Shown: positions 40,204 through 46,329 of the stretch, in pieces
Position numbering within the stretch: position 1 is the stretch's first letter
Layout of the letters: every line of letters begins with the position of its first letter
Source: an uncultured SAR86 cluster bacterium
Lineage (GTDB): Bacteria > Pseudomonadota > Gammaproteobacteria > Magnimaribacterales > D2472
Direction of reading: 5' to 3'
Assembly (NCBI GenBank): GCA_902558095.1
Contig: CACECP010000003.1
Coordinates: forward strand, 1 to 64,000
Length of the DNA: 64,000 bases
Notes under the pieces: model-generated
Told to the model about the DNA's origin: nothing
Databases searched by the model: none
The model's input: only the letters and a program-made list of their open reading frames with translations
Made by a program: the position numbers and the translations under genes

Positions 40204-42090
40204 ATGATTACTTTTAACAGGGTAGTTCTGTTAGTTGGTTTAGTTTCTATTACTGCCTGTGGAGGCGGTGGTGGAGGTGGAGGTGATTCTTACACTGCAC
40301 CAGTTGCTCCAACTAACAACGCACCAATGATAACAAATTCAACATCGAATTATTCGGTTGTTGAAAATCAGACATCTGCATTTACCATAACAGCTACTGA
40401 TGCAGATGGTGACACACTTACATATTCAATTGGAGGAACTGACGCTTCTCTATTTAGCGTTTCCTCATCTGGAGTAGTTACTTTCAATACTGCACCAGAT
40501 TATGAAAATCCCTCTGATGCTGACGCAAATAATGTTTATGACCTAATGGCATCAGTTTCAGACGGTTCGTTGTCTGATTCTAAAGATTTTATGGTAACTG
40601 TAACAAACGATACATCTGATGATGTTACAACAGAAGGTTACGATGGAACATACTTAGGCGCTGGACCAATTCAAGGGGCCACGGTTTGTATCGAAGTAAC
40701 TGCTGGAACGTGCGCAGGGGCACAATATACAGCAACCACCACTACGGATGGTTCTTTCTCAATAACAGTTGACTCAGGCGTTACTGGAGTTCTAAGAGGC
40801 GAAGGTGGATTTGACCCTGTTACTAATCTTCAACTTAGCTCGAACTCAAGTTTTGCTCTGGGTCAACCTGTTACCGATCAGAATTTCGTTGTAACACCTT
40901 TAAGTACAATCATGAATGAATTTAACAGTTCTGATTATGAAACTTTTAAAACAAAATTGGGACTAGATTCAAACTACATGATCAGATACAACAATCCATT
41001 TACTGGTCTCGATACTGCCTCTCTAAATAAAGCAGCTGTAGTTAATACGCAAATTCTTGTAATGCATGAAGTCATAAATGCTATTCATACATTTAGTGGC
41101 GACAGTGCAGCAAATAAAATTGCTTCAGCAATTTACAACAGATCTGGGAATGAAACTTCCTTGGGTGATACAACTTTTATGAAAGATATGCTAACTAATT
41201 TAGATTCTGATTTCTCCCCTACCAGTGATCAGTTAGTTGACCTTTCTGCTGGAATATCAGCTTTTATGCAAAAAATAAATGCAAACTCCTCTGATTCTCA
41301 TGCACATTTTGCAAAAGCTGGTGTTTCAGAACTCAAAGATCTAATGGTCTCCGTAATGAATGATACATCAAGTAACACAGAAATCGATAAATTAGTATTT
41401 AACACAATTAATTGGATAAATGAAAATACTTCATGGGATGGTGGCTCTATATCTGACAATGAAGAAGACATTAACACAACAACATATTCTTTATCAAACA
41501 ATGGAAGTACTAATTATATAGTTGATAATGTAAACACAAGAGATACTGAGTTCATTATCTATGTCCGAGAAGGCGATACTATTAAATTTGAAGCAACAAG
41601 TTCTGTAACTTCAGCCCACCCATTTCTGATGTCAACAGAAGCAAATGATATGGACAGCAGTAATGATATTGGAGCAATGGAAGGTTGGAATAAGGACTCA
41701 TTGACACTAACAGTTAATTCCAATACACCTGATACCATATATCCACATTGCCAATTTCATAATGGTATGTACGCAAATAGTAAAATAGTTAAAGTCGCGC
41801 AATTTGATCAAAATCTTATCGACGTTGATAGCAGTTCATCTGCTCTTCAAGTCAAAGGAACTGTTGCCTCAGGTCCTTTTAAGGGTGCATCTGGTTATAC
41901 ATATAAGGTATATCTCACCTCTCAAGGTGGATCTGAGCATACTCATACTTTCCATGAGTATCCAGGTTTGACATTTTATATGCCAGGTGGCCAAGGCTAT
42001 CATGGTGCTGAATCTGTATCATCAGATCAAAAATTCAAGCCAAAATCACACTATGTGGCAGGAAGTGATGATAGTAACGATAGTTATTAA
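40204..42090 (+). CDS. Lipoprotein with cadherin-like repeat and cupredoxin-like domain
   Basis: A 628-residue lipoprotein with lipobox SITAC near residue 19 followed by nine Gly codons. A cadherin-like repeat (NAPMITNSTSNYSVVENQTSAFTITATDADGDTLTYSIGG) spans about 38-130. Residues 145-200 read GPIQGATVCIEVTAGTCAG and resemble the carboxypeptidase-regulatory-like domain of the lipoprotein at 24947. Near 440-540 the block VREGDTIKFEATSSVTSAHPFLMS...YPHCQFHNGMYANSKIVKV has the H...C-x2-H-x2-M order of a blue-copper site. The His-rich HTHTFHEYPGLTFYMPGG is near the end. Promoter TTGACA-17-TTAAAT, a strong Shine-Dalgarno and a terminator frame it. Likely metal-binding surface protein; function inferred. 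Confidence 0.72.
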   Translation: MITFNRVVLLVGLVSITACGGGGGGGGDSYTAPVAPTNNAPMITNSTSNYSVVENQTSAFTITATDADGDTLTYSIGGTDASLFSVSSSGVVTFNTAPDYENPSDADANNVYDLMASVSDGSLSDSKDFMVTVTNDTSDDVTTEGYDGTYLGAGPIQGATVCIEVTAGTCAGAQYTATTTTDGSFSITVDSGVTGVLRGEGGFDPVTNLQLSSNSSFALGQPVTDQNFVVTPLSTIMNEFNSSDYETFKTKLGLDSNYMIRYNNPFTGLDTASLNKAAVVNTQILVMHEVINAIHTFSGDSAANKIASAIYNRSGNETSLGDTTFMKDMLTNLDSDFSPTSDQLVDLSAGISAFMQKINANSSDSHAHFAKAGVSELKDLMVSVMNDTSSNTEIDKLVFNTINWINENTSWDGGSISDNEEDINTTTYSLSNNGSTNYIVDNVNTRDTEFIIYVREGDTIKFEATSSVTSAHPFLMSTEANDMDSSNDIGAMEGWNKDSLTLTVNSNTPDTIYPHCQFHNGMYANSKIVKVAQFDQNLIDVDSSSSALQVKGTVASGPFKGASGYTYKVYLTSQGGSEHTHTFHEYPGLTFYMPGGQGYHGAESVSSDQKFKPKSHYVAGSDDSNDSY

Positions 42091-44468: not shown

Positions 44469-45263
44469 TTAAAGTAATAATAATAGAAATATGCCCAAAA
44501 ATATCCTATAAATAACGAATGGAATCATTCCTATTCTTTCAACAAAGTCTAAAAATAATTTAATTGTGAAAAATGCAAAAATCATTGAAACAAAAAATCC
44601 AATTGTTAAATGAATTAAATTGAAATTAATCTCTGAAGCTTGCATCTTTATAATCAACAGAACTAGAGAGCCTAGTATTGTAGGTATACTCAACATGAAA
44701 GAAAATTTTGATGCATCTTTGAGATTCATGCCAATCAATAGCGCTGCTGTTATAGCGGTCCCTGAGCGAGATGCCCCTGGTATTAAAGCAAAGCATTGAA
44801 AGAGTCCAATTAATAAAGCACCAAAAATAGTTATTTCAAATAAATTTTTATTTGCTTTTCTTTTCATAAATGCAATTAAGAGAACTCCAGCAAAGAGTAA
44901 ATTTGAAACCGCTATTGTAAATTTTTCACTGAATACCCTTTGCTCTAAGAGATCAGCCAAAACAAAACCTATAAATATGATTGGTAAAGTTGCAATAATT
45001 AAATTAAAAGATAATTGCTTATATTTGTCATTAATACTCTCATTTATAAAAACCGATTTAGTCATAAGAGCAAGTTCTGATCTAAAAAAATATATTACTG
45101 CCATAAGAGTTCCAGCATGAACAGCGATATCAAATGAAAGCCCTAAATCATTAGAACTAAAAATTAATCCGGGGAGAATTAAGTGAGCAGAACTTGAGAC
45201 TGGTAAAAATTCTGTGAGACCCTGAATTAGACCAAGAAGCAAACTTAAAAGTATGTCACTCAT
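44469..45263 (-). CDS. uppP: Undecaprenyl-diphosphatase UppP/BacA
   Basis: Membrane enzyme (264 residues, about eight helices) that dephosphorylates undecaprenyl diphosphate, recycling the carrier for peptidoglycan and O-antigen synthesis. Motifs: IQGLTEFLPVSSSAHLILPGL near 13-32 with the catalytic Glu/Ser and PGASRSGTAITAALLIG near 165-180. The sequence is near the Pseudomonas type. Its start overlaps the tsaB end by 8 bases. Confidence 0.95.
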   Translation of the reverse strand: MSDILLSLLLGLIQGLTEFLPVSSSAHLILPGLIFSSNDLGLSFDIAVHAGTLMAVIYFFRSELALMTKSVFINESINDKYKQLSFNLIIATLPIIFIGFVLADLLEQRVFSEKFTIAVSNLLFAGVLLIAFMKRKANKNLFEITIFGALLIGLFQCFALIPGASRSGTAITAALLIGMNLKDASKFSFMLSIPTILGSLVLLIIKMQASEINFNLIHLTIGFFVSMIFAFFTIKLFLDFVERIGMIPFVIYRIFLGIFLLLLL

Positions 45264-45681
45264 CTATTTTTTTAAAATTAGTTTCATGGTAAGTCGGATT
45301 TGCAAGATTAGGATCAAATTTCTTATGGTCTGAGCCTGAGTCTAAAAAATTTTGTTTAGCTTCTTTGGCCACTTCTCCTGCATCAAATGCTTCTCCTTTA
45401 TCGGTTATTACAATCAAAGGTTTATCTATACCTACAGCAATACCTTTCATAAAAGTAGCTATAGTTCTAGTCGCGGTATAAGAATGTTGGGAATTTGCAA
45501 AAGCAAACAAATCAATATCTTTAAGTATAAAAGTTTTTTTATGACCAATATTTGATAGAAAAAGGTCCCAATCTGGTCTTTCTTTTCTTTCATGACTCAT
45601 TGAAAAGGTATTTATCTCTTCATTAAGAATAACACTTATGGATGTATGATCTCCTGAACTTTTAATAGCTAGGATGTTCAT
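45256..45681 (-). CDS. tsaB: Shortened TsaB-like protein
   Basis: TsaB is the pseudo-ASKHA scaffold of the t6A37 tRNA-modification complex, partner of TsaD and TsaE. This copy has 141 residues against about 230. The first half matches: MNILAIKSSGDHTSISVIL, FANSQHSYTATRTIATFMKGIAVGIDKPLI (E. coli has GPGSFTGVRIG...GLALG). Then nearly the whole second subdomain is absent and a tail ANPTYHETNFKKIDE resembles the family's PVYLRN...W end. The D-T of LAIDTA is K-S here. It is framed by adk and uppP. Identity as TsaB is inference from these parts and position. Confidence 0.65.
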   Translation of the reverse strand: MNILAIKSSGDHTSISVILNEEINTFSMSHERKERPDWDLFLSNIGHKKTFILKDIDLFAFANSQHSYTATRTIATFMKGIAVGIDKPLIVITDKGEAFDAGEVAKEAKQNFLDSGSDHKKFDPNLANPTYHETNFKKIDE

Positions 45682-45684
45682 AAT

Positions 45685-46329
45685 TTATAACTGAATTGAA
45701 ATTTGTTGAAAAACACTTTCGACAGACTTAGAGCCATCAATTGTAAAAAATTTTAAATTGCCGGCATTTGAAAGATTTATATAAAAATCTGTGAGTGGTT
45801 TTGTTTGTTCATGGTAAACATGCAATCTTTTTAATACCGTTTCAGGTTTATCATCTTCTCTTTGAATAAGAGGATCACCTGTTTCATTATCAACCCCCTC
45901 CTTATCTGGCGGATTAAAGTCAATATGATAATTCCTACCTGATTTTGGATGTACTCTTCTTCCTGACATTCTATCGACTATAATTTGATCTTCTACGTGA
46001 ATTTCAATTACGTGTGTGAAGTCAATATTCATTTTAGCCAATTGCTCTGCTTGACCAATAGTTCTTGGAACCCCATCAAATAAAGAGCCATTTATACAAT
46101 CTGGTTTCGTAAGTCTGTCTTTTATCAAAGAACCAATAATGTCGTCTGAAACTAATCTTCCACTATCTAAGATATTTGATACCTCAAGACCTAATTCACT
46201 TCCAGATGCAACAGCTTCTCTTAGCATATCTCCTGTGCTGATCTTTGGTATTTTAAAGAGATCACATATAAGATCAGCCTGAGTTCCTTTTCCAGCGCCT
46301 GGCGGACCTAATAAGATTATATTCTTCAT
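45685..46329 (-). CDS. adk: Adenylate kinase
   Basis: Balances AMP, ADP and ATP (AMP + ATP to 2 ADP). Exactly 214 residues like E. coli Adk. P-loop GPPGAGKGTQ at 7-16, AMP-binding TGDMLREAV and DGVPRT, LID RMSGRRVHPKSGRNYHIDFNPP. LID has no zinc Cys. Starts with a 4-base overlap on acpS. Confidence 0.97.
   Translation of the reverse strand: MKNIILLGPPGAGKGTQADLICDLFKIPKISTGDMLREAVASGSELGLEVSNILDSGRLVSDDIIGSLIKDRLTKPDCINGSLFDGVPRTIGQAEQLAKMNIDFTHVIEIHVEDQIIVDRMSGRRVHPKSGRNYHIDFNPPDKEGVDNETGDPLIQREDDKPETVLKRLHVYHEQTKPLTDFYINLSNAGNLKFFTIDGSKSVESVFQQISIQL

Follow-up and report, generated by a model that had tools for sequence, protein, structure and literature searches.

The window, a 64,000-nucleotide stretch of DNA, carries on its minus strand an intact ATG-to-TGA frame of 141 codons (positions 45256 to 45681), flanked by adk and uppP. 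Judged from its named relatives, the window belongs to SAR86 (51 of the 60 carry SAR86 in the record title, and the others Gammaproteobacteria or Proteobacteria). A sequence-only reading had described the frame as a TsaB-like protein of 141 residues, which is confirmed here; the long TsaBs of SAR86 have 216 to 225 amino acids. The genes of the locus and the parts of the encoded protein are as follows.

44469 to 45263, minus strand: uppP/bacA (Pfam BacA), with an 8-base overlap between its start and the stop of tsaB
45256 to 45681, minus strand: short TsaB gene, 141 amino acids, stop codon included in the coordinates
45259 to 45381, minus strand: last helix (101 to 114 in the model) and C-terminal tail, residues 101 to 141, ending in ANPxY...FKK (alignment, model, and superposition)
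45382 to 45399, minus strand: junction, residues 95 to 100, where the C-subdomain of about 80 residues is missing (hhalign gap and models)
45400 to 45681, minus strand: N-terminal RNase-H-like subdomain, residues 1 to 94 (profile match to solved TsaBs, model, and superposition)
45466 to 45483, minus strand: SYTATR, residues 67 to 72, the kept half of GPGS(Y/F)TG(I/L/V)R; the preceding GPG is absent and Thr stands at residue 71
45685 to 46329, minus strand: adk, adenylate kinase (Pfam ADK), directly upstream of tsaB

The overlap between uppP and tsaB is like that of the window in most short loci. Elsewhere in the window, a frame of 628 amino acids on the plus strand (40204 to 42090) has a signal-like start followed by a Cys and eight consecutive Gly, and then apparent cadherin-type repeats; it is possibly a surface lipoprotein.

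The NCBIfam TsaB model (TIGR03725) matches the short protein weakly, over residues 3 to 92 (19.2 bits, E value of 9e-4), which falls below the curated equivalog cut-off of 69.3 bits, and a Pfam search returned nothing over the cut-off. Because the score is so far below the cut-off, annotation with the standard model would likely miss tsaB here. A profile of the short family matches solved YeaZ/TsaB chains over residues 1 to 94 (best E value of 2e-6), and the gene shares its genomic place beside adk with the undisputed tsaB orthologues of the order. Compared profile to profile, the short and the full-length SAR86 TsaBs match along their whole length except for one long gap (hhalign probability of 100%, E value of 1e-41), and this bears out the earlier suggestion that the first subdomain and the C-terminal tail resemble TsaB. 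Residues 1 to about 95 of the short protein pair with the beginning of the long one and residues from about 98 to 141 with its end, and about 80 residues are missing. As aligned, the gap agrees with the subdomain borders given in published structural accounts, which assign residues 101 to 159 to the second domain of Thermotoga maritima YeaZ (PMC2954210) and residues 91 to 160 to the C-subdomain of Aquifex aeolicus TsaB (PMC11648230).

Structure prediction gave the same division. The model of the short protein is confident except at the extreme tail (pLDDT of 89.6, pTM of 0.85), and the elements running from helix 93-102 to strand 160-163 in the model of a long form (L138; pLDDT of 87.0, pTM of 0.85) have no counterpart in it. 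The short model superposes on Pseudomonas aeruginosa YeaZ (4y0w_C, chain residues 2 to 215) over 128 residues at 2.0 Å (Z score of 18.4) and on the Escherichia coli TsaB of the TsaD-TsaB heterodimer (4ydu_C) over 136 residues at 3.5 Å (Z score of 17.7).

Motifs were compared between 41 short forms (40 loci and the window) and 20 long forms. The S(Y/F)T..R element at the start of helix 2, the (A/V)NPxY element, and the basic pair of the tail are kept in all 41 short and all long forms. None of the 41 short forms has the GPG loop or the GxGW element, and each of the 20 long forms has both. The 40 short loci all carry Thr at residue 71, where the 20 long loci carry Leu or Ile. The same motif pattern is seen in the 25 short forms of the genome set described below, which was collected without using these motifs, where the 21 longer TsaBs that were read out all have GPG. 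Judged by alignment and gene order, the short protein is a TsaB by descent and place. It lacks the C-subdomain and the GPG motif, two features that define the family, and in this respect is a derived half.

The distribution of the short form was followed in 60 genomes, comprising the window's own, 33 of the same genus, 2 of the same family, and 24 of the same order, which were searched by whole-protein comparison and not by motif patterns. The window's genome and 23 of the 33 other genus members carry a short TsaB of 140 to 143 amino acids, as does one genome of a sister genus (G034), and in all 25 of these genomes the gene lies directly after adk. Nine of the 10 genus members without the short form also lack an adk match, and in the tenth (G033) a contig end truncates adk; the absences thus follow missing sequence. 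The TsaB of another member of the window's family (G035) has 212 amino acids. Among the other families of the order, 20 of the 24 genomes were read out, and 18 of these have a TsaB of 189 to 227 amino acids; in the other two (G047 and G050, both of the family designated f4) the start was set too late to give a length.

A second collection consisted of 60 named loci, with 39 complete short genes (141 to 143 amino acids), 1 short gene truncated at a contig end, and 20 long genes (216 to 225 amino acids). These loci were found with two short-form peptide patterns, one of them containing TATR, so that the TATR of this collection is partly there by construction and the 40:20 split of short to long is not a frequency; the scan also did not reach long forms that lack an H.RK.RP.W element. 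The two collections overlap: for 23 of the 25 short TsaBs from the genome set, an identical one is present among the named loci. Sequences of the short form range down to 42% identity with the window's TsaB. An assembly error or frameshift was rejected as its cause because the length recurs in 23 of the 33 genus members, the sister-genus genome, and the 39 complete named loci. The short gene is a clade-wide conserved form and not a lone decaying gene, as the reading from sequence had considered it might be.

Across the class, 131 of 140 genomes surveyed pass the TsaB cut-off, among the matches listed, which gives no support to the idea that short TsaBs are common there. Nine genomes fell below the cut-off. 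Two belong to the SAR86 order (the window's own and G038), and the other seven were searched again together with G147, whose apparent short form proved to be a contig end. Six of the seven showed a TsaD-sized frame only, apart from an additional 144-amino-acid frame in one of them (G224; E value of 0.04), and the seventh (G092) showed nothing credible. Within the order, TsaBs of family f4 (G038, G041, G044, G056, and G059) have 189 to 196 amino acids, with a reduced C-subdomain and GPGS(Y/F)TG kept, a milder and apparently separate reduction.

A second TsaB was sought to establish whether the short form stands alone. TIGR03725 at an E value of 1 or less found no second TsaB-sized match in the window's genome, the 33 genus members, or the sister-genus genome (G034); the other matches in these 35 genomes are TsaD, in open frames of about 340 amino acids. 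Thirty of the 60 named genomes were also checked, and the TsaB cut-off was passed by 16 of 16 with the long form and by 0 of 14 with the short form, none of the latter 14 having a second full-length tsaB. The window's genome is 80% complete, and seven other short-form genomes are 90 to 96% complete. The missing subdomain might instead be encoded elsewhere, with the two halves assembling as separate proteins. Nothing positive speaks for such a split gene, and a C-subdomain profile had no match in the window's genome and a best E value of 0.036 in the 33 other genus members, although this profile, built from 11 of the 20 long forms, is insensitive (among the full-length TsaBs of the 60 genomes it found only that of G037 and missed that of G035). 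We regard a split gene as the least probable of the explanations considered.

The partners of TsaB are retained. TsaD is present in 55 and TsaE in 56 of the 60 genomes, the window's own included in both cases. TsaC (TIGR00057) is present in 54 of the 60 genomes and in 28 of the 33 other genus members; the TIGR00057 search did not find it in the window's genome (80% complete, as noted) or in its two closest relatives (G009 and G010). The gap may come from the incompleteness of these genomes, or TsaC may really have diverged or been lost in the subclade.

Rates of change show that the short gene is under purifying selection, weaker than that on adk. The median dN/dS over 297 pairs of short tsaB genes is 0.29 and the maximum is 0.52; comparison of the window with its two nearest relatives gives 0.07. 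In 245 of the same pairs adk has a median of 0.083; this control covers short pairs only, and dS is near saturation in many pairs. Within the short form, pN/pS is highest in the middle (0.74 at residues 96 to 121) and lower in the N part (0.40) and the tail (0.44). For the N part the value is 0.395 in short forms versus 0.161 in long forms (87 pairs). Because the short form changes faster than adk and than the N part of the long forms, the constraint on it may be relaxed. This faster change, the missing TsaC in three related genomes, and the family score far below the cut-off are the observations that speak for decay of tsaB, with the t6A pathway on its way out or TsaB unneeded and the short frame a remnant. 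A remnant is hard to reconcile with a length of 140 to 143 amino acids in every complete copy despite sequences of such low identity, with residues that stay invariant in the helical bundle and the tail, with a dN/dS that never exceeds 0.52, and with the retention of TsaD and TsaE and, in most other genus members, of TsaC. Decay is very improbable, and we rejected it as weakly supported, on the dN/dS evidence. Of the two alternatives that the sequence-only reading had left standing, a minimal TsaB that suffices or a decaying gene, the evidence favors the former, the gene being fixed in the clade with constant length and place.

Phylogenetic analyses bear on how often the shortening occurred. 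A tree of the N-subdomain, from which residues 61 to 72 were left out, places the 40 short genes in one group (support of 98/87, on 82 columns only). In the tree of Adk and UppP, two of the long forms (L138 and L140) are nested within the short group and the starred branches force two changes; a single change is found in 0 of 200 bootstrap trees, and a single short clade is not rejected by these data (AU test, P = 0.113). One ancestral deletion is the simplest reading of these trees and probably what happened, with two events possible. The tsaB orthologue of this SAR86 subclade has been cut down to the N-subdomain, the terminal helix, and the tail.

TsaD itself differs between the two clades. 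Thr occupies the position equivalent to E. coli Phe100 in 21 of the 30 TsaDs from the short clade, with Ser, Ala, Cys, Glu, Met, Ile, or Val in the remaining nine; these 30 genomes include five without an assembled tsaB (G001, G011, G025, G032, and G033), and one genome is counted twice. All 15 long-clade TsaDs have Leu, Ala, Val, or Phe at this position, and all 6 TsaDs of family f4, where TsaB is also shortened, have Asn, Lys, or Thr. Replacement of Phe100 by Glu in E. coli TsaD is reported to break both dimers (PMC4330362). The TsaD motif CTDN(A/G)AM reads CGDN in 30 of 30 short-clade sequences (e.g., L041) and in 1 of 15 from the long clade (L153), and its Thr is kept in the other 14 long-clade TsaDs and in 10 TsaDs of families f2 and f4. 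Most of the TsaD columns that differ between the short and long clades may simply follow phylogeny. The pattern at the Phe100 equivalent and at TsaB residue 71 fits a re-fitted interface between the two proteins, as a correlation resting on one or a few events.

A changed interface would also be expected if TsaD worked as a homodimer, as in mitochondrial Qri7, and the short TsaB had been recruited to another role. The shift at the Phe100 equivalent counts in favor of this explanation, yet adaptation of the interface to a shorter TsaB would account for it just as well. The clade also retains TsaE, which according to a review binds the TsaD-TsaB heterodimer and not homodimers (PMC9654439), and the residues of TsaB that would form the helical bundle and the tail stay conserved. 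We consider a TsaD homodimer improbable, if somewhat less so than decay.

We conclude that the short protein is very probably a minimal TsaB that still performs the essential function of the family, docking on TsaD and tRNA and dispensing with the C-subdomain and the interfacial nucleotide site. The N-subdomain of known TsaBs makes a helical bundle with TsaD, as the same review describes (PMC9654439), and the helices of the short TsaB would pack in the same way on the N-lobe of TsaD. The tail, which is described as promoting tRNA binding in other TsaBs (PMC11648230), would reach across the interface and help to hold the tRNA. Conservation of the tail is no proof of contact with TsaD, because E. 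coli TsaB without residues 220 to 231 is reported still to bind TsaD (PMC4330362, section 24). With TsaE, TsaD would then transfer the threonylcarbamoyl group to A37, and the short TsaB would in this manner support the synthesis of t6A.

The second subdomain would be dispensed with, and with it the part that makes the TsaB-TsaB contact of the T. maritima tetramer and supplies Arg118 to the interfacial ADP site of E. coli. The published E. coli structure places this ADP by GPGS(Y/F)TG(I/L/V)R and in contact with Arg118 (PMC4330362). Arg118 falls within the part missing from the short forms, and the GPG loop, the other half of the site, is likewise gone, so that interfacial nucleotide binding is presumably lost. 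That the site can be spared is suggested by E. coli YeaZ R118A, which is reported to be fully active in vitro (PMC4330362). In a fuller version of this proposal, the t6A synthesis of the clade runs on the docking half alone, with a TsaD interface re-fitted through Thr at the Phe100 equivalent and Thr at TsaB residue 71, as a natural minimal complex that converges architecturally on Kae1-Pcc1; we give it about an even chance.

If true, the C-subdomain and the interfacial nucleotide site are dispensable for bacterial t6A synthesis in this clade. In its treatment of the bacterial system, the review pairs TsaD with TsaB in every bacterial genome and presents TsaB as two-lobed (PMC9654439). Among openly licensed PMC papers listed in keyword searches, excluding preprints, we found no description of a short natural TsaB/YeaZ or of a SAR86 TsaB. 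A clade of ocean bacteria may reveal which half of TsaB is really needed. What the C-subdomain and the interfacial ADP site contribute becomes directly testable, with full-length relatives at hand for comparison, and the short TsaB offers structural work a natural minimal partner of TsaD.

Full-length TsaB/YeaZ proteins (E. coli 4ydu, P. aeruginosa 4y0w, T. maritima 6nak, and A. aeolicus 8iey) share with the short form the fold of the N-subdomain, the S(Y/F)T..R element, the last helix, and the PxY element with the tail, and in both cases TsaD and TsaE co-occur with the protein. In contrast to them, the short form is without the C-subdomain of about 80 residues and the GPG loop, has Thr at residue 71, and scores below the NCBIfam cut-off. 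Another comparison is with the long SAR86 TsaBs (SAR86E and others, 216 to 225 amino acids; L120 to L122 and L124 to L140), which are likewise orthologues adjacent to adk with the H.RK.RP element and the (A/V)NPxY tail, but which have the C-subdomain, the GPG loop, and GxGW.

Outside the TsaB family, the short form is most probably comparable in role to Pcc1 of the archaeal and eukaryotic KEOPS complex, as a module that docks on TsaD and contacts tRNA. Pcc1 is described as binding the N-lobe of TsaD/Kae1 via a helical bundle (PMC4330362), the same place as is proposed for the short TsaB. No Pcc1 chain is among the structural matches listed for the short model. Pcc1 is unrelated to TsaB, whereas the short TsaB is a trimmed TsaD paralogue and is proposed to act with TsaE, not with Bud32 and Cgi121. 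The mitochondrial TsaD Qri7/OSGEPL1 offers another parallel as a reduced t6A system, in the account of the review (PMC9654439). Qri7 is described there as a homodimer without a TsaB-like partner, whereas the SAR86 clade keeps its partner gene under selection.
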